Assembly (NCBI GenBank): GCA_031285645.1
Contig: JAITVU010000070.1
Span: 1-10,314, forward strand
Reading direction: 5' to 3'
Source of the DNA: Oscillospiraceae bacterium
GTDB taxonomy: Bacteria; Bacillota; Clostridia; Oscillospirales; Ruminococcaceae
Length of the DNA: 10,314 nucleotides
The notes below the pieces were generated by a model, which ran no database searches, was not told the origin of the DNA, and saw only the letters and a list, made by a program, of their open reading frames with translations. Each line of letters starts with the position of its first letter. The stretch's first letter is position 1. Position numbers and translations under genes: made by a program. This document shows positions 942 to 10,314 of the stretch, piece by piece.

Positions 942-1742
942 ATGGGATTATATCAAAACCGCATCGTCGTGAAGGTGGGAACGTCCACCCTCACCAATGA
1001 AATCGGGCAAAACGACCTGCGCTCATTCAACCGTCTGGCCTGTGTTTTATCCGATGTCCAGAACATGGGCTATGAAGTGATCTTAGTGTCTTCAGGCGCC
1101 ATCGCTGTTGGCGCGAATAAACTGCGGATGAAAAAACGCCCCGCCGATATGCGGCTCAAGCAGGCCGCGGCGGCGGTTGGGCAATGCAGCATCATGTTTT
1201 TGTACGACAAGTTTTTCAGCGACTACGACAAGACAATCGCCCAAATCCTGCTCAATGCGGAGGATATAGAGCAGGAGGAAAAAAAGGAAAACCTGTCGGG
1301 CACCTTTGAGGCTTTGCTGGAAATGGGGATTATCCCAATAGTCAATGAAAACGACTCCGTCAGTTATACCGAAATTGAATCGGTGGAAAGGCTGTTTGGC
1401 GACAACGATATGCTTTCCGCCGTAGTCGCGGTATTGTGCAGGGCATCCAGGCTGGTTATCTTTTCGGACATTGACGGATTTTTCGACAGCGACCCGCGCC
1501 TGTATCCCAACGCAAAGCTGATCGAGCGCATTGACCGCATTGACGACAATGTAAAGGCTCTTGCCGGGGGAGCGGGTTCCCGGCGCGGCACCGGGGGCAT
1601 GAAAACAAAGCTGCAGGCCGCGCAGCTTGCCACCGCACAGGGGACCGATACCATCATCACCAACGGGAAGAATCCCGAGTCGCTGTATCAGATCATCAAA
1701 GGCGAGGGCGCCGGCACGTTGTTCGCCGGGTGCAGGAAATAG
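942..1742 (+). CDS. proB: Glutamate 5-kinase, short form without PUA domain
   Basis: Phosphorylates L-glutamate to glutamyl 5-phosphate with ATP, the first committed step of proline synthesis, in the cytosol. The 266 residues form an amino-acid-kinase fold: VVKVGTSTLT (9-18), LVSSGAIAVG (48-57), the glutamate-binding NEND (135-138), FGDNDMLSA (152-160), SDIDGFFDSDPR (175-186) and GTGGMKTKLQAA (216-227) are all intact. The C-terminal PUA domain of the longer E. coli-type enzyme is absent, as in several Firmicutes. An AGGGGGAT Shine-Dalgarno at 928-935 precedes ATG 942. It lies 12 nt after the tRNA-editing gene and is probably cotranscribed; an intrinsic terminator follows 8 nt after the stop. 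No proA follows, so the next pathway enzyme must be encoded elsewhere. Confidence 0.95.
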   Translation: MGLYQNRIVVKVGTSTLTNEIGQNDLRSFNRLACVLSDVQNMGYEVILVSSGAIAVGANKLRMKKRPADMRLKQAAAAVGQCSIMFLYDKFFSDYDKTIAQILLNAEDIEQEEKKENLSGTFEALLEMGIIPIVNENDSVSYTEIESVERLFGDNDMLSAVVAVLCRASRLVIFSDIDGFFDSDPRLYPNAKLIERIDRIDDNVKALAGGAGSRRGTGGMKTKLQAAQLATAQGTDTIITNGKNPESLYQIIKGEGAGTLFAGCRK

Positions 1743-1749
1743 AAAAATA

Positions 1750-1787
1750 AGGCAAGCCGTGTTTAATTTCCGGCTTGCCTTTTGTTT
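1750..1787. terminator. Bidirectional intrinsic terminator after proB
   Basis: A perfect 10-bp stem, AGGCAAGCCG (1750-1759) with CGGCTTGCCT (1771-1780), has an 11-nt loop and is followed by TTTGTTTTGT on the plus strand. On the minus strand the same stem is followed by a T-rich stretch (TATTTTTC), so it can also stop the leftward flavin operon that ends at 1985. Confidence 0.9.
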
Positions 1788-1810
1788 TGTGCTTTTTTGC
1801 TTGAGCCGCC

Positions 1811-1908
1811 GCTGCGATATATAGTCATATAGGTTTAAAACTGTATCAGTTTTAAACCACAGCGGGCGAAGCCCGCTGTTACGCATCGCGTGGATATGAC
1901 AATGCAGC
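1811..1908. repeat. Cloverleaf-like nested inverted-repeat element of unknown function
   Basis: In the 242-nt gap between convergent genes lies a compact set of nested palindromes. The outer stem is GTCATAT (1824-1830)/ATATGAC (1894-1900). It encloses three consecutive perfect hairpins, each with a 3-nt loop: a 12-bp arm (1832-1843/1847-1858), a 9-bp GC-rich arm ACAGCGGGC/GCCCGCTGT (1859-1867/1871-1879) and a 4-bp arm ACGC/GCGT (1881-1884/1888-1891). Only 4 nt between arms are unpaired. A further GCTGC (1811-1815)/GCAGC (1904-1908) pairing extends the base beyond an asymmetric internal loop. It is not a tRNA: arm lengths are wrong and there is no T-loop motif. A dispersed palindromic (MITE- or REP-like) element or a structured terminator is possible. 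The structure is seen; the function is unknown. Confidence 0.7.
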
Positions 1909-1984
1909 AAAATATGGGATGCTATCGGTGCACACCTGTATTGCAATTAATTATTGCTTATTTCAGGTTGTAAACCGTGGGCGG
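1909..1984. other. Remainder of the convergent intergenic gap
   Basis: AT-rich DNA without a convincing ORF. It holds a small palindrome GCAAT-TAATT-ATTGC (1943-1957) and a 4-bp hairpin GGTT/AACC (1966-1969/1973-1976) just past the stop of the leftward operon. Neither has a T-run. I see nothing else here. Confidence 0.4.
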
Positions 1985-2923
1985 TTACCTGGCGTCGACA
2001 TGCGCGACCTTTGCCGTCCCGCGGATTTCATCCAGTGAGTGAATGTCGAGTTCGTTCATCAGTTTTTCCAGGTCAACCAGCAGTTTCTCCATGAAATCCG
2101 GCCGTTTCAGATTCGCCGAGCCGATCTGTACGGCGAACGCGCCGGCTAAAATGTACTCAATGACGTCCTCGGCGCTGTTAATGCCGCCCGCCCCTATGAC
2201 GGGAATCGAAAAGGCCGACGCGGCCTCGCGCAGGCGTGAAAGCGCATAGGGCTTGATGCCCGCGCCGAAGAAACCGCCGCCACCGCCGGCACCGCAGCGG
2301 TAGGTGCGGGTGCGGATATCAATGGAGCAGCCGTTCAGGCAGTTGAAGGAAACGAACATATCAATCCCCGATTCCTGCAGTACTTCGGCCATATAGCGCA
2401 TTGAAAAATCGCCGCCGGGCGCTTTGGCGATGACGGGCTTGCCGCCCGAAACATCCTTGACGCCGCCGACAAGCCGTTTGAGCTTATCCGGGTCGGAATA
2501 GTACGCCGGCTCGCCTGTGCCGTACGGGCATATCAGGTTGATCTCGATGCAGTCGATGCGCTTTGTTTTGGCTGCCAGCGCGGCCATCTCAGCCATTTCG
2601 GCCATCGTGCGCGCCTTGAGGTCGACAATAAGCTTCGGGCCGTCCGGCAGCAGCGGCATCTGCTCGTCAATAAAGTTCTGCAGGCTGATATTATTCGCGC
2701 CATAAGCCGAAATGAAGCCCGCATCGGCGCAGCAGAATTTTGTCGCGGCCGACGGCGCTCCATCCTGATTCATCAGTGAGTTGGGGATGACGGCGCCCAG
2801 CTTGGTCAGATCGGTCAGGTGGCGGAACTCCACCACGTTGCCGACGCCGCCCGGGGCGGACATCACCGGATTGGCCAGGGAGAATGTGCGGCCGCCTGTG
2901 TGGCAAGTGACTTGCATGCTCAT
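1985..2923 (-). CDS. Dihydroorotate dehydrogenase-like FMN enzyme (PyrD-B family, probably altered substrate)
   Basis: A 312-residue FMN-binding TIM barrel of the DHOD family. Recognisable are NPVMSAPGGVG (18-28), the strand EINLICPYG (127-135) with a cysteine at the class-1 catalytic-base position (C132), K167 in the FMN-contacting IAKAP, the NCLNGCSIDIRTR segment (194-206, like the family NTLxGxxID), GAGIKPYALSRL (220-231) and the FMN-phosphate motifs GAGGI (244-248) and QIGSA (266-270). Several orotate contacts of true DHODs look replaced: TKS is PNS at 47-49, the INS asparagine is S72, and the asparagine after CP is Y134. A related reductase of another unsaturated substrate is therefore more likely than pyrimidine synthesis. 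AAGGAGG lies 7 nt before ATG 2923. Last gene of the operon, 12 nt after the PyrK-like gene. Confidence 0.85.
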   Translation of the reverse strand: MSMQVTCHTGGRTFSLANPVMSAPGGVGNVVEFRHLTDLTKLGAVIPNSLMNQDGAPSAATKFCCADAGFISAYGANNISLQNFIDEQMPLLPDGPKLIVDLKARTMAEMAEMAALAAKTKRIDCIEINLICPYGTGEPAYYSDPDKLKRLVGGVKDVSGGKPVIAKAPGGDFSMRYMAEVLQESGIDMFVSFNCLNGCSIDIRTRTYRCGAGGGGGFFGAGIKPYALSRLREAASAFSIPVIGAGGINSAEDVIEYILAGAFAVQIGSANLKRPDFMEKLLVDLEKLMNELDIHSLDEIRGTAKVAHVDAR

Positions 2924-2935
2924 AGCTGCGCCTCC

Positions 2936-3685
2936 TTATATGTAGTGGATCAGGCTGTCCTGATCGCGGGCGAAATCCACGGCGGTCAGCGGCAGCATGG
3001 GACCTTTGCAGCATACGGGGAACCCGAACGACCTGTCGCCGCTCGTGATAAAACAGCTTTTACAGCCGCCCACGCCGCATGCGATCTTGGCGGCGATAAA
3101 AGCATAGGTTCTGGCCGCTAAATCATCCGGCACCGCCTGCTTCCACTTGACTATAAGCCCGACCGGCAGGGCCATGAGAACTTTGTCCGCGTTCAGGACG
3201 GCCGCACGGTCTTTAAGTTCAGCCGGATCATCCGCCTTTTCCGTGATATCCGCGCGCAATACGGTCGAAGCGTCGCCGCCGCCCACCAGATATACGCCGC
3301 TCAGGTGATCGCCAAATGCCTCAACATAGGGTCTGACCGGCAGGCATCCGCGCGCGTCTGTTATGATTGCCGCGGTTTCTCCCGACGCCATCGCGACGCC
3401 TGTACCGTTCGGGCCCCAGACTGCCACCGCGTCGCCGGCCTTAAGGCCGTACAAAGGGCAGTCAGGATGGATGATCACGGTGAAGCGATCGCCTGTCGCC
3501 CGCTGGATGGTCAGAGGAGTGGGCCAGTCAGCGCCGCATTTGACACCGGCCAGCATCACATATTGCCCCGGCGCGTAGCAAAGATTTTCCCACTGAACGC
3601 TCACGCGTTTCCAAATGCGGCCGTCCGCCCCGATAAAGGGTTCGGCCGTGCGGACCATGGTGTCCTTAATGGTTGCCTGATTCAT
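2936..3685 (-). CDS. PyrK-like FAD/[2Fe-2S] electron-transfer protein
   Basis: A 249-residue cytosolic protein of the ferredoxin-reductase-like PyrK family, which passes electrons between a nucleotide or other donor and a DHOD-type partner. The N-terminal FAD barrel covers about 1-100, with YAPGQYVML (37-45), TPLTIQR (56-62) in place of the usual RxYS-type FAD motif, and GPNGTG (91-96). The C-terminal [2Fe-2S] ligands are clear: C203-x4-C208-x2-C211-x14-C226, the PyrK spacing. Oddly, the region where family members carry a GGGxGxxP nucleotide-binding motif reads TDARGCLP (109-116), keeping only the last G and P, so NAD(P) binding may be lost or changed. GGGAGG lies 7-8 nt before ATG 3685. Its direct partner is probably the downstream DHOD-like enzyme. 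Confidence 0.82.
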   Translation of the reverse strand: MNQATIKDTMVRTAEPFIGADGRIWKRVSVQWENLCYAPGQYVMLAGVKCGADWPTPLTIQRATGDRFTVIIHPDCPLYGLKAGDAVAVWGPNGTGVAMASGETAAIITDARGCLPVRPYVEAFGDHLSGVYLVGGGDASTVLRADITEKADDPAELKDRAAVLNADKVLMALPVGLIVKWKQAVPDDLAARTYAFIAAKIACGVGGCKSCFITSGDRSFGFPVCCKGPMLPLTAVDFARDQDSLIHYI

Positions 3686-3698
3686 GTTTTCGCCTCCC

Positions 3699-4634
3699 TT
3701 ACGCGCCGCCGAAAGGCTTCGGCAGTACGGTCGTCAGCTGCTTTGCCAGTCGCTCGTAGTTGTCCCAGGAGGGATAGCGCACAGCGCCTTTATTGGTGAC
3801 AGGCTCATCGAACATGGCGCGTTTATCCCACATGGCGCCGCAGTTTCTGCCTTCCAGGTAATACAGGCCGTCTAACGGAAGCAGCGCCTGCCGCTCAAGA
3901 ACACGCGATTCGAGCATATCCATCAGCGAGACAAAATTGATGTTCCAGCAGTGGCGGTCATAGCCGGGCGCGAACGGATCCGCATAGCATGGCGACTGCG
4001 CCTTTGATTGCCTGTAATACTGCTTGAGCTCCGGATACCATATATCCTTCTGGTGGTCGGCAAACAGCTCATCATAACGGCAGGAAATGATTTGTCCGTC
4101 CTCGATGATCACACGCAGCCAGCCGGTCAGGCCGTAAGTGAAATCCTCCGCGATGCTGTAGAAGCGCCTCGAGGACGGCTTGCCGATCAGCGGGGCGAGT
4201 TTTTTTGCCATCGGCACCATATTTTTCATACTGCCGGACGCCCCGGTCAGCAGCTCAAAATCGCCATCCAGCGACTGGTTTTTCATGATCTGGCTCTCCA
4301 CCTTCATCATGCCGTTGACAAGCACAACGCCCAGCTCCACCAGGCGGCTTTTCGAGGCCTGCCAAATGCCGTAGTCGGAGCGGCGCTTGTCGCGCCCCGC
4401 GAAATATTGGTTGTAGTAGCAGTCCATAGCCCGCTCGTTGAACTCGACAAAAACAATTTTGCCGTCGTCCACCACAACCTCCAGCTTGCCGTGGTGGCCG
4501 CCGACGCCGGGCGATTGCCCGAACTCCTTCTCGGCCGCATAGTAATCGCCTTTCAGAATCCCCAGCGGCGGCTGGATCGTGTAGTCAAGCCAATCCACTT
4601 CCTCGCGCTGATTCCATGTAACAGGGTTTGCCAT
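3699..4634 (-). CDS. Two-repeat FMN-binding-domain-like protein, candidate ApbE flavinylation substrate
   Basis: A 311-residue protein I cannot assign to a named family. Two internal units look like degenerate FMN-binding domains. Unit 1 runs GKLEVVVDDGKIVFVEFNE (49-67) to LDGDFELLTGASGS (122-135). Unit 2 runs GWLRVIIEDGQIISCRYDE (171-189) to LDGLYYLEGRN (254-264). Unit 1 ends in TGAS-x-S, like the [S/T]GA[T/S] site where ApbE attaches FMN through phosphoester, with acidic residues just before it; unit 2 has EGRN instead. There is no signal peptide or membrane segment, so it should be cytosolic. The track-length frame begins at GTG 4643 inside apbE, but AAGGAG lies 8 nt before ATG 4634, giving a 1-nt gap to the apbE stop. 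Position directly after apbE supports the role; the flavinylation itself is inference. Confidence 0.6.
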   Translation of the reverse strand: MANPVTWNQREEVDWLDYTIQPPLGILKGDYYAAEKEFGQSPGVGGHHGKLEVVVDDGKIVFVEFNERAMDCYYNQYFAGRDKRRSDYGIWQASKSRLVELGVVLVNGMMKVESQIMKNQSLDGDFELLTGASGSMKNMVPMAKKLAPLIGKPSSRRFYSIAEDFTYGLTGWLRVIIEDGQIISCRYDELFADHQKDIWYPELKQYYRQSKAQSPCYADPFAPGYDRHCWNINFVSLMDMLESRVLERQALLPLDGLYYLEGRNCGAMWDKRAMFDEPVTNKGAVRYPSWDNYERLAKQLTTVLPKPFGGA

Positions 4635-4635
4635 G

Positions 4636-5640
4636 TCAGTCACTCCTTACCTTTATTTTGAGTTCCGCCGCCGGATGAAAACGCTTTGCAAGTCCGGCGG
4701 AGATCACAATTTCATCCTGTTTAACCAGGAGATATTCAATAGCCGCCCGGTCCCGCAGCCGCCGCGCCGCCTGCGCGCCCTGCTCTTCCCCGAGCACGAA
4801 GAACGCGGTTGACAAAACGTCGGTCAGCAGCGGGCTGTCCGACACGATCGTCACGCCGAGTACCTCGTTGCGCACAGGCCGGCCGGTGCGCGGATCGAGG
4901 ATGTGATGATAAATCTGATTTGCGTCCGTAAAGTATCTGTCGTAGGCGCCTGAAGTCGCCACCGCCTCATCCTGTAAGTCGAGAAAACCGATTGCGTCGC
5001 CCAGCTTGCCCCAGGGCCGCTGAACGCCGACCCGCCAGGGGCGGCTATCCCACTCGCCCGCCCGGTAAGGCCCCAGAACATTCAGATTGCCGCCGAAGTC
5101 GACGCTTGCCGAGGTGACGCCGTACCCGCGCAGGCACTCCGCCACACAGCCCACGGCATATCCCTTGCCCGCGCCGCCCGTGTCCAAAACAAGGCCCGGT
5201 ATGTCGATGACTACGGCGCGTTCCCGCGGCAGAAACGAGAGATGCCGGTATCCGACATGCGCCATAGCCTCGCGGATCTCCATGTCGGACGGTATCGTGG
5301 GGTGCCTGGCCGTGATATCCCACAGGCGCATTAAAAAACCGACGGTCGCATCAAATGCTCCGCCGGTTATCTCTGTTAAATTGTGGATATTTTCCTGGAA
5401 CGCATACAGAGACTCGGACAGGCGATAAGGTTCGCCCGGGCAGTAGCCTTTGTTCAGCCGGCTCAACTCTGAAAATGGATCATAAAGATTGAGCATGGCC
5501 TGTATGCGGTTCGCCTCGTCTTCGCAGGCGTCCAGAATCTGGACTGCGTCGTCTTCACGGCTGTGCAGGATGACTTCACAAATAGTGTTGTACAGGAAAA
5601 AGCGACGGCCGATGTAACGCGCCGTGCTTTCAAGGGACAA
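4636..5640 (-). CDS. apbE: FAD:protein FMN transferase (ApbE family), apparently cytosolic
   Basis: Cleaves FAD and transfers FMN to a Ser/Thr of target proteins, using Mg2+. The 334-residue protein has the full family motif set: YDPFSELSRLN (53-63), GGAFDATVG (93-101), LDTGGAGKGYAVG (152-164, usually DLGGIAKG), DFGGNL (181-186), SGAYDRYF (230-237), HHILDPRTGRP (245-255) and TDVLSTAFFVLG (273-284), in which D274 matches a metal ligand. Most ApbE proteins are exported lipoproteins; this one begins SLESTARYIGRRFF and has no signal sequence. I chose TTG 5640 because AGAGGGG (5654-5648) lies 7 nt upstream; the frame is open to GTG 5688, but that start lacks such a site and overlaps the likely -10. 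First gene of the operon; the next gene encodes its probable substrate. Confidence 0.92.
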   Translation of the reverse strand: MSLESTARYIGRRFFLYNTICEVILHSREDDAVQILDACEDEANRIQAMLNLYDPFSELSRLNKGYCPGEPYRLSESLYAFQENIHNLTEITGGAFDATVGFLMRLWDITARHPTIPSDMEIREAMAHVGYRHLSFLPRERAVVIDIPGLVLDTGGAGKGYAVGCVAECLRGYGVTSASVDFGGNLNVLGPYRAGEWDSRPWRVGVQRPWGKLGDAIGFLDLQDEAVATSGAYDRYFTDANQIYHHILDPRTGRPVRNEVLGVTIVSDSPLLTDVLSTAFFVLGEEQGAQAARRLRDRAAIEYLLVKQDEIVISAGLAKRFHPAAELKIKVRSD

Positions 5641-5678
5641 AAAACCACCCCTCTGCGCGTAAGAAAAATCTTGTGTAC

Positions 5679-5707
5679 ACTGTAACACAGAACGGCGGAA
5701 TGATCAA
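5679..5707 (-). promoter_or_regulatory. Probable promoter of the apbE operon, with overlapping palindrome
   Basis: On the minus strand TTGATC (5707-5702), 17 nt, TACAGT (5684-5679) gives a plausible sigma-A promoter about 40 nt upstream of the TTG start. A perfect palindrome GTGTACAC (5673-5680) overlaps the -10, and together with the nearby TGTGTTACA it forms TGTGT-N8-ACACA, a possible repressor or CRP/FNR-type site. The promoter is inferred from consensus; the regulator is unknown. Confidence 0.5.
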
Positions 5708-5723
5708 GATGTTTTTTTCGCTC

Positions 5724-5752
5724 TTGCATTTATCCGATTTAAGCAGTAGAAT
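5724..5752 (+). promoter_or_regulatory. Probable promoter of the uronate dehydrogenase/dehydratase operon
   Basis: TTGCAT (5724-5729), 17 nt, TAGAAT (5747-5752) is a good sigma-A match. It predicts a 5' leader of about 80 nt before the gene at 5840 and lies back to back with the leftward apbE promoter. Confidence 0.6.
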
Positions 5753-5784
5753 GGTGCTGCAGATTGAGGGCAGAATTTTATTCC

Positions 5785-5797
5785 GGTGATTCTCACC
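5785..5797 (+). promoter_or_regulatory. Small palindrome in the leader, possible operator
   Basis: GGTGA-TTC-TCACC is a perfect 5-bp inverted repeat about 25 nt downstream of the predicted start of transcription and 42 nt before the gene. Its position would suit a repressor site; it could also be chance. Confidence 0.3.
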
Positions 5798-5839
5798 CCG
5801 CCATGTATGAAATTTATTAGATAATCAGAGGTGATGAGC

Positions 5840-6697
5840 TTGAAAATTTTAGTGACAGGCGGAAACGGAAGGATGGGACGCTGCATCACGGAGGGGCTCC
5901 GGGCAAGCGGCTATGATGTAATCTCCACCAGCCGCACCCCAAATGAAGAACTCGGGATCAGCCGTCTCGACATACGCGACGCCAAGGCTTGCGTGGAGGC
6001 CTTTCGCGGCGTGGACACGGTTATACACATGGCGTTCTATTTGAGAAACGACAAATTCCACGAGGAGATCGTGCCGACCAACATTGTCGGCACATACAAC
6101 GTGTTTGAGGCGGCCCGGGCAAATGGCGTGAAGCGGGTGATATTCGGCTCGTCAAACCATGTGGTGGGTTTTTACAAGCGAACCGATGAGTTGCGGGACG
6201 ACATCATGCAGCGCCCGGACAGCCCTTACGGACTCTCAAAAGGCTTCTGCGAGCTCTGCGGACGGTATTACAGCGACAGATACGGCATTTCCGTCATAAA
6301 CGTGCGGATTGGCTCTTTCACTTTTGACGGGCTGCCGACGTCGCTGCGCACGTCAAAGCTGTGGCTGAGCCGCGATGACACGCAGCAGCTCTTTCAGAAG
6401 TGCGTCGAGGCGGATCCGGCGCACAAGTTCCTGACAATTTATGGGGTGTCGGGGAATGACGGATGCTATTTCGATATTGCCGGTCTGAAGGACCTGATAG
6501 GCTATGTACCCAGGGATAACGGCGCGGACCATCTGGCCCATGCGCTGGAGAAGAACATGTATGGCGGCGCCGATGACTGCGCCTTTATAGGGGGCGCGTA
6601 CGTGACCTTCGATTCGGGGACTGGAAAATATCCCACGGAGGTTATGGAAACGCTTCTTCGCGCGCACGGCGCTAACGAAAATGAGGAGGGCAGCTAA
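5840..6697 (+). CDS. NAD-dependent uronate dehydrogenase-like SDR (extended short-chain dehydrogenase)
   Basis: A 285-residue extended SDR. The Rossmann motif GGNGRMG (7-13) follows the start directly. The catalytic region SSNHVVGFYKR (104-114) and SPYGLSKGF (128-136; Tyr130, Lys134) and the later VRIGSF (156-160) and VSGNDGCYFD (203-212) closely parallel uronate dehydrogenases such as Agrobacterium Udh, which oxidise galacturonate or glucuronate to the aldaro-lactone with NAD+. I chose TTG 5840: AGAGGTGA (5827-5834) lies 5 nt before it and the protein then starts MKILVTGG; GTG 5831 and ATG 5834 overlap that Shine-Dalgarno. The stop codon abuts the start of the dehydratase gene, so the two are surely cotranscribed. 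The substrate is inferred from family resemblance and neighbours; another sugar dehydrogenase or epimerase role is possible. Confidence 0.8.
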   Translation: MKILVTGGNGRMGRCITEGLRASGYDVISTSRTPNEELGISRLDIRDAKACVEAFRGVDTVIHMAFYLRNDKFHEEIVPTNIVGTYNVFEAARANGVKRVIFGSSNHVVGFYKRTDELRDDIMQRPDSPYGLSKGFCELCGRYYSDRYGISVINVRIGSFTFDGLPTSLRTSKLWLSRDDTQQLFQKCVEADPAHKFLTIYGVSGNDGCYFDIAGLKDLIGYVPRDNGADHLAHALEKNMYGGADDCAFIGGAYVTFDSGTGKYPTEVMETLLRAHGANENEEGS

Positions 6698-7828
6698 ATG
6701 AAGATCACAGATGTAAAGACCTATGTCACGAACCCCGGGTACCGCAATTTCGTCTATGTAAAAATTCTCACCGACGAGGGCATCCACGGTATCGGGGAAG
6801 CCTACTCCATCGGGCCGGACCTGGCGACGGTCAAGACGATCGAGTACTTTAAGGATTGGCTCATCGGGGAGGACCCCACCCGCGTGGAGTACCTCTGGAC
6901 AAAGCTTTACAACTATTCCCGCTTCCCGGGCGGCTCAATCCTGTATTCCGCCCTGTCCGGGATCGATTTCGCCCTGTGGGATATAACGGCAAAATCGCTT
7001 GGCGTGCCGGTATACAAGCTCTTCGGCGGCCCGACAAGGGATAAGGTCTGGCTTTATGGAAAGCCCGTCGGCAAAACCCATGAGGCGCTTGTGGAGTGCG
7101 CGCTCGCGGAGCGGGAGCGTTACGGCTTCAGCGCCATCAAGACATTTCTGCCGTTTCTTGAAGGAAAAGGCCCGTCAATCAAGCGTCTCGAAAACAATTT
7201 CAGCGCCCTCAGAAACGCGCTGGGCGACGATTATCAGATCGCCATCGATTTCCATGCGAGGGTGCTCGAGCCGGCAACTGCGCTGACGATGGCCCAGGTC
7301 ATCGAGCCCATGCACCCGTTTTTTATCGAGGAACCGCTTAAACCGGAGAACATGGGCATGATGGCCGCGCTGAAAGCCAAAATGAAAGCGCCTCTCGCCA
7401 CGGGCGAATGCCTGTATACAAAGTTTGAGTTCAACGATCTCATTAAGGCGGACGCGGCCGATATTTTGCAGCCCGACCTCTTTGTCAGCGGCGGCTTCAC
7501 AGAGGGTCGGAAAATAGCGGCAATGGCCGAGGCCAACTATAAAAACATCGCGCCGCATCACCCGGTCAGCCCGCTGGCGACCTATATCAACGTGCACTTT
7601 GCGCTTTCCATCTCCAATTTCCTGATACTTGAGTTCCAGAATGACGATGTGCCGGGGCGCAGGGAGCTTCTCACCGATGTGCTCAAAGTCAATAACGGCT
7701 ATATTGATCCGCCGACAGCCCCGGGCTGGGGCGTGGAGCTGAACGAGGCATACATAGAGGCCCATCCATACAAATCGTGGACGCGGCCGTTCATCAAAAA
7801 TCACGACGGCTCAATCGGTATTGTGTAA
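6698..7828 (+). CDS. Enolase-superfamily sugar-acid dehydratase (mandelate racemase/galactonate dehydratase type)
   Basis: A 376-residue member of the MR/MLE enolase superfamily, predicted to dehydrate a sugar acid (aldonate or aldarate) to a 2-keto-3-deoxy acid. The N-terminal capping domain covers about 1-120. In the barrel the Mg2+ ligands are D184 (IDFHAR), E211 (IEEP) and E237 (TGE). H186 and H287 (APHHP), with D260 (QPD), sit at the spacing of the galactonate-dehydratase acid and base, and E312 matches the final acidic residue. GAGGAGGG (6683-6690) lies 7 nt before ATG, and the start follows the upstream stop with no gap. Next to a uronate-dehydrogenase-like gene, an aldarate or its lactone is a sensible substrate, but MR-family substrates cannot be fixed from sequence; mannonate, galactonate or rhamnonate remain possible. 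A strong terminator follows. Confidence 0.88.
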   Translation: MKITDVKTYVTNPGYRNFVYVKILTDEGIHGIGEAYSIGPDLATVKTIEYFKDWLIGEDPTRVEYLWTKLYNYSRFPGGSILYSALSGIDFALWDITAKSLGVPVYKLFGGPTRDKVWLYGKPVGKTHEALVECALAERERYGFSAIKTFLPFLEGKGPSIKRLENNFSALRNALGDDYQIAIDFHARVLEPATALTMAQVIEPMHPFFIEEPLKPENMGMMAALKAKMKAPLATGECLYTKFEFNDLIKADAADILQPDLFVSGGFTEGRKIAAMAEANYKNIAPHHPVSPLATYINVHFALSISNFLILEFQNDDVPGRRELLTDVLKVNNGYIDPPTAPGWGVELNEAYIEAHPYKSWTRPFIKNHDGSIGIV

Positions 7829-8015: not shown

Positions 8016-8030
8016 GCTTGATGACAATCA

Positions 8031-8136
8031 TTTATGTGTGGTTTTATAAAAAAATGTTACCGTAAGCTGGTATCGCGGCAATTTTTGCAGACAAACGATA
8101 ATTTAAAATGTTTACTTCGTTGGTCATAACTGATAG
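8031..8136 (+). repeat. Promoter-region repeat, copy A
   Basis: This 106-nt AT-rich segment aligns without gaps to 10209-10314 at 80 of 106 positions. Best-kept blocks are TTTATGTGTG (8031-8040), TGTTACC, GCAATTTTTGCAGACAAA (8078-8095) and GTTTACTT. It lies immediately upstream of the beta-helix gene, so it probably carries a shared activator or repressor site and promoter. Confidence 0.75.
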
Positions 8137-8149: not shown

Positions 8150-8231
8150 AGGCGAGATTAATCTATCATAAACGCCCATGCGCTTTAGCGCAGAGACATC
8201 AACGAGACCAGTTTTGGGGAGGAGAATCAGC

Positions 8232-10193
8232 GTGACAAATACAAATCGCGATTTGACGGCGGTTTTGCCGGACGGCAATGATTTTGTGTTCTGGGAAACA
8301 GAGCAGGTCTATGACCGAGAACTGCATATCAGCGCGCGCAATGGCTGCGACGAAACCGGAGACGGCACGTCCGGCGCCCCGTTCGCTTCAATCGGCGCCG
8401 GCGCCGCAATCGCCGCACCCGGCACGAGAGTTATCATCCACGCGGGTACATATCGGGAATGCGTGCGCCCCGCGCAGGGCGGCACAAGCCCCGAGTACAT
8501 GATTGCGTATGAAGCCGCCGGTGACGGAGAGGTCGTCATCAAAGCTTCGGAGGTGGCCACCGGTTTTGCGCGCAGCCTTGATTACCGCATTGATTCCGAC
8601 AGTGACGGCACGGAGCCCGTTATCTGGGAACATGCCCTCAACGGCGAGATGTTCCACGGGTATAATCCGTTCGGCGTGGTCAACTGCATTCACGAAAAGA
8701 ACTGGCTGCGCTATGGCCGGGTGGAAAAGGAATCAAGCCTTGAACCCTATTTTCTGCGCCGGGGCATGGTGTATGTGGATGGTCATCCACTGCGGCAGGT
8801 TCAGCTTTATCAGCTTATGAGCAACGCGCCCGGCACATACTGGGTGGAGGAGAACGGCCTGAAGGTGCATTTCCGCATGCCAGATAACGGGTCGCCGGAA
8901 GGGCATCTGATTGAGGTTTCCTGCCGTGAGCAGAACTTTGTTCCCGCGAAACCGTTCCAGTCCTACATAAAGGTGAAGGGCCTCACAATGCTGCACGCCG
9001 CGAACGGCGCGCCTGTCCCGCAGATCGGCGCCCTGTCATGCGGACGCGGTCATCACTGGATCATTGAGGACTGCGTAATAGGCTGGGCCAACGCGCTTGG
9101 GATCGACATCGGGAATGAAGGCTGGAGCATCAGGCGGCGGCCCGATCAGGTGATCGGATACGCCGTGCTGCGCCGCAATCAGATCCTCGACTGCGGCGTG
9201 TGCGGAATCGCGGGCATCGGCGCGTCGTATACCCTTGTCGAAGATAATGTGATCGCCCGCACCGGCTGGCAGCACATGGAATTCGGTTGGGAAGCCAGCG
9301 CGCTGAAATTCCATGACAGTGTCGACAGCCTGTTCAGGCGCAACATATTCCGCGACAGCGACCTCTGCGACGGGCTTTGGCTCGACTGCGGCAATTATAA
9401 CGACCGCATCACGCAGAATCTGTTTCTCAATATCCGCTCGCCGCACGGCATGATCTTCATGGAATGCAACCGCGGCGGCGCGGTCCCGCATGAAATTCTG
9501 ATAGACAATAACATTCTCTGGGATTCCAAATTTTATCAATCACCAGAAGCGCTCAAACACACCATAACCATCGATAGCACGCACTGGAACGAGCCGTTCG
9601 ATCTGTCCACGCCGATAGGCGAGGGTATTTCAGGTTACGGCTCCGACGATATGCATATTGCCAACAACCTGATTGCCAATATGGACGGCATGGGCTACAG
9701 CCACAACATCATCCGCGGCCGGATGCACGGCGGGCGCGGCGGCACATCCCGGAATTCCATCGTCATGAACAACGTGATTTACGATTGCCGAAGCGGCGCG
9801 ATCCGCCTGCCAAACCACGACAACACCTTCGACGGCAACTACTATGCCAAGATGCCGCAGGGCTTTTTAGTTCTGACATATCCGGCGCCCACCGAGCAGC
9901 TTGACCTAGCCGCGTGGAGGCGCTTTGAGGGATATGATCTGCACGGCGGCTATGCCGCGTTCAAACTGAGCGTTGACCAGGAGGCGCTTACGCTCACCAT
10001 ATGCCCGGACGATAAGACCGGCGTGTGGGATGATTGCGAAAGCGTGGGTTACTGTTCAATGGAGAAGGTTGAGCCGGACGCCAAGGTATCGACGGACTAC
10101 TTCGGGAATGTTGTGGAGGGCAAGCGTATGCCGGGTCCGCTTGTGGTCGACAGGGATGATGTGACGATCAGCATCGACCCTCGAAAGCTTTAA
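8232..10193 (+). CDS. Right-handed parallel beta-helix protein, probable polysaccharide lyase/glycosidase-like enzyme
   Basis: A 653-residue protein. The N-terminal module (about 31-110: LHISARNGCDETGDGT, PFASIGAGAAIAAPGTRVII, HAGTYRE) is the usual start of DUF1565/Pel9-type beta-helix proteins. From about 245 to 540, repeated N- and D-rich turns such as VEDNVIARTG, FRRNIFRDS, ITQNLFLN, IDNNILWD, IANNLIAN and VMNNVIYD mark the parallel beta-helix coils. A C-terminal segment (about 560-653) is probably a beta-rich closing domain. There is no signal peptide, so it should act inside the cell, perhaps on imported oligosaccharides. GTG 8232 is preceded by GGGGAGGAG (8216-8224) at 7 nt; the frame opens earlier at ATG 8178 without such a site. 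The uronate-type genes upstream suggest a pectin- or uronan-derived substrate. Catalytic residues and reaction are not identifiable here. Confidence 0.8.
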   Translation: MTNTNRDLTAVLPDGNDFVFWETEQVYDRELHISARNGCDETGDGTSGAPFASIGAGAAIAAPGTRVIIHAGTYRECVRPAQGGTSPEYMIAYEAAGDGEVVIKASEVATGFARSLDYRIDSDSDGTEPVIWEHALNGEMFHGYNPFGVVNCIHEKNWLRYGRVEKESSLEPYFLRRGMVYVDGHPLRQVQLYQLMSNAPGTYWVEENGLKVHFRMPDNGSPEGHLIEVSCREQNFVPAKPFQSYIKVKGLTMLHAANGAPVPQIGALSCGRGHHWIIEDCVIGWANALGIDIGNEGWSIRRRPDQVIGYAVLRRNQILDCGVCGIAGIGASYTLVEDNVIARTGWQHMEFGWEASALKFHDSVDSLFRRNIFRDSDLCDGLWLDCGNYNDRITQNLFLNIRSPHGMIFMECNRGGAVPHEILIDNNILWDSKFYQSPEALKHTITIDSTHWNEPFDLSTPIGEGISGYGSDDMHIANNLIANMDGMGYSHNIIRGRMHGGRGGTSRNSIVMNNVIYDCRSGAIRLPNHDNTFDGNYYAKMPQGFLVLTYPAPTEQLDLAAWRRFEGYDLHGGYAAFKLSVDQEALTLTICPDDKTGVWDDCESVGYCSMEKVEPDAKVSTDYFGNVVEGKRMPGPLVVDRDDVTISIDPRKL

Positions 10194-10208
10194 GCCCGGC
10201 CACGTCAA

Positions 10209-10314
10209 TTTATGTGTGATTTTATGAATAATTGTTACCCTTTGCTTGTATTGAAGCAATTATTGCAGACAAAAAACAACTATAAACGTTTACTTGTTTA
10301 GCAATAAATGATAA
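10209..10314 (+). repeat. Promoter-region repeat, copy B (cut by window end)
   Basis: This is the counterpart of 8031-8136. It contains TTTATGTGTG, TGTTACC, the perfect palindrome GCAAT-T-ATTGC (10257-10267), TTGCTT-N6-AAGCAA (10242-10247/10254-10259) and TTTACT (10289-10294) with the sequence running out just where the -10 should begin. It presumably precedes another gene of the same regulon beyond the window. No convincing terminator separates it from the beta-helix gene. Confidence 0.75.

Follow-up and report, generated by a model that had tools for sequence, protein, structure and literature searches.

Organization of the four-gene module

The window analysed here, 10,314 nucleotides (nt) long, is the entire contig JAITVU010000070.1 of an Oscillospiraceae genome assembly (2.24 Mb, 70.6% complete). 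It carries on its minus strand a module of four genes that sets a predicted flavin mononucleotide (FMN) transferase and its likely target beside relatives of the two subunits of a dihydroorotate dehydrogenase (DHOD). The genes, and the sites within them, are as follows.

4636..5640, minus strand: ApbE, an apbE-like FAD:protein FMN transferase, 334 aa from a TTG start
3699..4634, minus strand: FBP, a 311-aa protein with two FMN-bind-like repeats, predicted covalent-FMN carrier
4236..4256, minus strand: candidate flavinylation motif E127-L-L-T-G-A-S133 of FBP, with Ser133 as the predicted FMN site
2936..3685, minus strand: PyrK-like [2Fe-2S] protein, 249 aa
3011..3079, minus strand: four cysteines of the PyrK-like protein (C203, C208, C211, C225), predicted [2Fe-2S] ligands
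1985..2923, minus strand: DHOD-like FMN oxidoreductase, 312 aa

The initial annotation had described these genes as tightly packed, and the open reading frames (ORFs) bear this out, with gaps of 1 nt (ApbE/FBP), 13 nt (FBP/PyrK-like) and 12 nt (PyrK-like/DHOD-like). All four frames are open, with a Shine–Dalgarno-like sequence on the 5' side of each; the longest ORF of ApbE starts at 5688, and the called start is the TTG. The same annotation had seen no signal peptide or transmembrane segment in the four proteins, and Kyte–Doolittle hydropathy, a crude scale that is the basis of every localisation call in this work in place of SignalP or TMHMM, agrees: no signal peptide or membrane segment was found, the best 15-residue mean being 0.51–0.80 within the first 60 residues and 1.45–1.65 anywhere in the proteins. 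For comparison, the N-terminal value of the other ApbE of the same assembly (locus L001) is 2.33. That second enzyme has a lipoprotein-like N-terminus, and the cytosolic ApbE is therefore a separate enzyme, as in Klebsiella (PMC12052999).

A predicted flavin transferase and its likely target

The module ApbE matches PF02424 with an E-value of 5.8e-71 (239.6 bits against a cut-off of 25.6). Its Ser230, His246 and Asp274 align with Ser241, His257 and Asp285 of Vibrio cholerae ApbE (6nxi), the residues named as the catalytic set of that enzyme (PMC12052999). With both the family profile and the Ser/His/Asp set retained, FMN transfer is the predicted activity.

No Pfam or NCBIfam model matches FBP above its cut-off, and no PDB sequence matches it at an E-value under 0.02. 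Nor does FBP match PF04205 (FMN_bind) at E ≤ 0.1, a threshold at which 4 of 59 rows of its family do (best E 1.6e-20; a distinct PF04205 domain is present in rows P0063 and P0064). The structural model, with a pLDDT (predicted local distance difference test) of 94.3, has the FMN-bind fold that the initial annotation expected of this protein. A candidate flavinylation motif lies at the expected place just before a long helix, and its sequence, ELLTGAS, lines up with TGAT of 3o6u. The published motif (PMC12052999) is D-x-x-[S/T]-G-A-[S/T]; among 65 FBP-family matches, the strict form occurs in 38 and a variant with Glu in 10. A132, S133 and S135 are invariant in all 59 rows of an alignment (A3) that leaves out six of the 65 matches (P0006, P0043, P0048, P0059, P0061 and P0062); a second alignment (A2), which served for the genome scan described below, has 24 rows. 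As judged from motif and model, Ser133 is the predicted site of covalent FMN attachment. Across the same 59 rows, 20 columns are invariant, many of them charged or aromatic (E64, Y73, Y74, K83, E113, D188, E189, K211).

The family is rare. A sample of 398 genomes from the phylum contained it in 10, and one of 295 genomes from the order in 2, the source genome being counted in both; strong matches occur in three of the ten phylum genomes (the source genome, G376 and G394), and the other seven lie at E 6e-8 to 4e-4. Six peptide patterns used to look for FBP relatives in viral contigs gave no match. Ten of the 65 family matches are of secreted type. On a tree of 55 chosen FBP rows, which leaves out the FBPs of loci L008, L010, L024–L026 and L076, the secreted/cytosolic label needs only two changes, and the cytosolic state is therefore old. 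Rows linked to PyrK-like and DHOD-like genes are spread over both of the large cytosolic groups, though support for one of these is not firm (84/86), so that this link is either old or was gained more than once.

Altered relatives of PyrK and PyrD

The PyrK-like protein shows a weak match to PF10418 (E 0.0019, below the cut-off). Its four cysteines are invariant in 9 of 9 PyrK-like rows, and in 11 of 11 when two fusion domains are added. In PyrK, RPxS is the FAD motif, and GGGIG, DGSxG and CGP are the NAD motifs. RPIS, GGGIG, DGSxG and CGP were present in none of the 11 PyrK-like sequences, as compared to all eight canonical PyrK proteins from relative genomes. The assignment of this protein as an FAD/[2Fe-2S] carrier thus holds for its second half: the [2Fe-2S] cysteines are kept, and the FAD and NAD(P)H motifs are lost. 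A protein search with the PyrK-like sequence returned itself as the only match, and its relatives are therefore known through gene neighbourhood alone.

The DHOD-like protein matches PF01180 (E 6.8e-34) and the structure 1ep1_A (E 7.5e-32). In class 1B PyrD, a catalytic cysteine acts on the substrate, which is held by a set of orotate-site residues. The window protein keeps the cysteine (Cys132), and Tyr134 and Asn48 replace the canonical Asn and Lys. Among 43 DHOD-like rows, which contain the window sequence twice, the catalytic Cys is present in 43, the Lys is replaced by Asn in 42 (with one gap), and the Asn of the SCPN motif is replaced by Tyr in 43, whereas the canonical set has the canonical residues in 8 of 8. 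Because these orotate-site residues have changed, the substrate is probably not dihydroorotate. A separate, ordinary pyrK-pyrD pair was found in all eight relative genomes searched. The FMN enzyme proposed initially stands as a PF01180 protein, but a role as a pyrimidine enzyme is disfavoured by the two residue changes and by the presence of pyrK-pyrD elsewhere in these relatives.

Conservation of the gene order

A scan of a species-genome collection gave 26 loci, which N-terminal hydropathy divides into 17 of cytosolic type (L003–L018 and L020) and nine of secreted type (L019 and L021–L028). ApbE, FBP, PyrK-like and DHOD-like genes are consecutive in six of the 17 cytosolic-type loci (L003–L007 and L011), so that the order noted in the window is indeed conserved. 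PyrK-like and DHOD-like genes lie beside FBP in 11 of the 17 (L003–L007, L011 and L014–L018), as against none of the nine secreted-type loci (Fisher p 0.0024), and ApbE occurs within 14 of the 17 versus none of the nine (Fisher p 7e-5); both p-values overstate the significance, because the loci share ancestry and two of them, L006 and L014, are from a single genome. In L014 and L015 ApbE is about 7 kb away. L008, L017 and L018 are truncated at the end of a contig or of the data. A second FBP precedes ApbE in L004–L007, and the order in L016 is FBP-ApbE(split)-PyrK-DHOD.

FBP and the PyrK-like protein are fused into a single polypeptide in L014 (539 aa) and in L015 (527 aa), the latter on a complete chromosome of Hungatella hathewayi, and a third fusion of this kind is P0059. 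The three fusions are 94–95% identical and thus represent one fusion event, but they are a direct sign that FBP and the PyrK-like protein act together. Given the recurrence in other genera and this natural gene fusion, the arrangement is not due to chance.

The relatives also offer a feature that went beyond the initial annotation: their modules follow genes for an ABC importer and for a two-component system. Related genes of both kinds are found 5' of the module in L003–L007 and L011; in L003 they encode a histidine kinase, an AraC-type response regulator, a solute-binding protein and two permeases. The L003 binding protein has a distant likeness to proteins that bind cellobiose, maltose and trehalose; that of L015 is of the DUF3502/SBP_bac_1 type, and L076 has a Dpp/Opp-type importer. 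The substrate of the DHOD-like enzyme is probably an imported, sugar-like compound; because the L003 likeness is distant and the L076 importer is of Dpp/Opp type, we do not name it.

Several other features of these loci were observed. The apbE frame of L016 (9397–10340) and the pyrK-like frame of L018 (5789–6525) are each split into two overlapping frames, by sequencing error or decay. Five loci (L009, L010, L012, L013 and L076) carry two or three cytosolic FBPs and ApbE, with no PyrK or DHOD, next to a Dpp/Opp-type binding protein, which was identified as such in L010 and L076 and assigned by cluster membership in L009, L012 and L013; they constitute a second, different cytosolic flavinylation cluster. 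The secreted-type relatives in L022–L028 belong to Enterococcus, Vagococcus and Lactococcus. Those of L022 neighbour a DUF4822 protein, a histidine kinase and a response regulator, related genes are present in L023–L028, and no ApbE match was found within the fetched loci of L022–L028.

Contig and neighbouring genes

The possibility that the contig is mis-binned is unsupported: its tetranucleotide profile correlates with stretches sampled from the same assembly at 0.944 (20 stretches taken, 17 usable; leave-one-out mean among these stretches 0.899, range 0.793–0.949). The module stretch alone has a correlation of 0.878 and a GC content of 58.7%, versus 53.3% for the rest of the contig. Promoter and terminator scans of positions 1700–5900 were near chance level.

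Divergent from the module, two adjacent plus-strand genes (5831–7828) encode an Azf-like short-chain dehydrogenase/reductase and a galactonate-dehydratase-like protein of the enolase family, which together look like part of a sugar-acid pathway. A beta-helix protein gene (8178–10193), also a divergent neighbour, is flanked by a 106-nt direct repeat (8030–8135 and 10208–10313, 76% identical), as if two similar genes with a common leader stood in tandem. The glutamate 5-kinase gene at 942–1742 (266 aa) matches model positions 2–253 of 363 only, and its product seems to be without the usual C-terminal part.

Discussion

Our analysis suggests, with a probability of roughly 0.6, that the four genes encode a soluble cytosolic electron relay based on flavinylation, which is predicted to run from covalent FMN through a [2Fe-2S] cluster to an FMN enzyme. 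In this relay, ApbE would move FMN from FAD to Ser133 of FBP, as the motif, the fold and the catalytic residues indicate. Flavinylated FBP would then dock on the PyrK-like protein and exchange electrons with it, as the gene order and the natural fusion imply, and electrons would move between the [2Fe-2S] cluster and the FMN of the DHOD-like enzyme, in one direction or the other. The conserved Cys of this enzyme may serve as acid/base on a substrate that is probably other than dihydroorotate, and that probably enters through the linked ABC importer, a sugar-binding one in the closest relatives. We mildly favour a direction in which electrons move towards the DHOD-like enzyme and it acts as a reductase. 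Near the module, no gene was recognised as a candidate for the electron donor to the FMN.

Several observations weigh against this relay. Other orotate-site Asn residues are kept at three positions of the DHOD-like rows (41, 43 and 34 of 43), with which a pyrimidine-like substrate would be compatible, and the loss of the FAD motifs leaves the path through the PyrK-like protein uncertain. The window FBP has Glu at the consensus Asp of the flavinylation motif, 17 of the 65 family matches fit neither the strict form nor the Glu variant, and the fusion proteins, together with L017 and L018, have Ala at the [S/T] position (DLVAGAS). In six loci (L009, L010, L012, L013, L020 and L076), ApbE is accompanied by one to three FBPs while PyrK and DHOD are missing, and the FBP family can therefore work without these partners. 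Furthermore, the window contig holds no importer, and the divergent neighbours (the dehydrogenase/reductase, the galactonate-dehydratase-like protein and the beta-helix protein) recur in none of the 26 relative loci. The retained orotate-site Asn residues and the Ala motifs of the fusion proteins, in particular, slightly lowered our confidence. The initial proposal that the four proteins work together is partly supported: the conserved order and the fusion link ApbE and its likely target to the PyrK-like and DHOD-like proteins, but the six loci speak against a fixed machine of four proteins.

A more specific version of the relay, which we put forward tentatively and regard as somewhat less likely to be right than wrong, is a rewired class 1B DHOD (DHODB). 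The PyrK-type subunit would have dropped its NADH and FAD sites, the flavinylated two-repeat FMN-bind protein would serve in their stead as an electron port with a tethered flavin, and the result would be a soluble enzyme of three proteins, with which gut Clostridia transform a compound that they import and that probably derives from carbohydrate. Should FAD be truly absent from the PyrK-like protein, no flavin but the FMN tethered to FBP would be left on that side, and this FMN may act in place of FAD. DHODB itself (PyrD-PyrK) and the module are alike in both folds, in the [2Fe-2S] cysteines, in the catalytic Cys and in the adjacency of the two genes. They differ in that the module PyrK is without RPIS, GGGIG, DGSxG and CGP, that the module PyrD has the Lys-to-Asn and SCPN Asn-to-Tyr changes, and that the module adds ApbE and a predicted covalent-FMN protein.

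The relay might also run in reverse, which we consider unlikely but the best of the alternatives. The DHOD-like enzyme would oxidise the imported compound, and electrons would travel through the [2Fe-2S] cluster to the covalent FMN, with FBP as terminal reductase or as the point of hand-over to another acceptor. FBPs with ApbE and without PyrK or DHOD, in the six loci listed above, lie beside importer genes in L010 and L076 (in L009, L012 and L013 by cluster membership only), so that FBP may have its own chemistry, and its 20 invariant columns seem more than a bare carrier would need. However, no acceptor gene was recognised nearby.

Far less probable is a duplicated dihydroorotate or dihydropyrimidine dehydrogenase operon that came by chance to lie beside an ApbE cluster, with FBP and ApbE unrelated to it. 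The DHOD and PyrK folds, the catalytic Cys and several kept orotate-site Asn residues would fit such an origin, but the FBP::PyrK fusion, the association in 11 of 17 loci, the replaced Lys and SCPN Asn with the lost NADH motifs, and the pyrK-pyrD pairs elsewhere in 8 of 8 relative genomes would not. Least probable of all is a relic of once-secreted proteins whose signal peptides were lost and which are now decaying in the cytosol. The secreted family members (10 of 65) and the split frames of L016 and L018 could be adduced for it. Against it, each of the four window genes has an open frame preceded by a ribosome-binding-like sequence, the two label changes on the 55-row tree make the cytosolic state an old one, and the active-site residues are conserved.

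The relay favoured here, from tethered FMN to the DHOD-like enzyme, differs from the flavinylation systems described so far. The extracytosolic systems (Nqr, Rnf, extracellular electron transfer and others) share ApbE and the FMN-bind fold with the module and have a flavinylation motif that the window FBP resembles with Glu in place of Asp; the module is, however, without a signal peptide or membrane partner; by hydropathy, neither its ApbE nor its FBP shows the signal peptide or lipidation site by which those systems are recognised. The survey of Meheust et al. considered the neighbourhoods of ApbE, FMN-binding, DUF3570 and DUF2271 genes and retained a cluster only if a target gene in it encoded a signal peptide or lipidation site (PMC8238504), and a cluster like the present one would therefore have been left out. 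A later paper on extracytosolic systems adds FMN_red and Flavodoxin_4 targets (PMC10979944). CbFMN4 and SaFMN3 are described as secreted with several FMN sites, whereas the module FBP is cytosolic with one predicted site. Closer are the fumarate-reductase-type enzymes of the Klebsiella cytosol, already alluded to in the initial annotation, where a signal-less ApbE flavinylates a soluble target (PMC12052999). There a fumarate reductase receives the flavin, while the likely target in the module stands alone, has two FMN-bind-like repeats and is accompanied by PyrK-like and DHOD-like proteins. In a scan of nine window proteins, no match to a fumarate-reductase-type (FAD-binding) Pfam family appeared at E ≤ 0.1. 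Our searches of openly licensed papers gave no report of ApbE or flavinylation with a DHOD/PyrK-like pair as one system, and the only match for ApbE with dihydroorotate dehydrogenase was a survey of the Brucella flavoproteome (PMC9045290). What is new is thus the arrangement of the module, since flavinylation and PyrDK-type chains are already known.

Most known cases of permanent flavin attachment lie outside the cell membrane, and flavinylation by ApbE is explained mainly as preventing the loss of flavin outside the cytosol (PMC10979944). If our reading is true, a conserved cytosolic module that feeds a repurposed DHOD-type enzyme would need another reason, for example docking or the steering of electrons away from NADH. 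Our findings also point to a protein family whose member in the window escapes the Pfam models, and to an uptake-and-redox pathway in cultured Lachnospiraceae such as Hungatella and Schaedlerella, where it would be directly testable.

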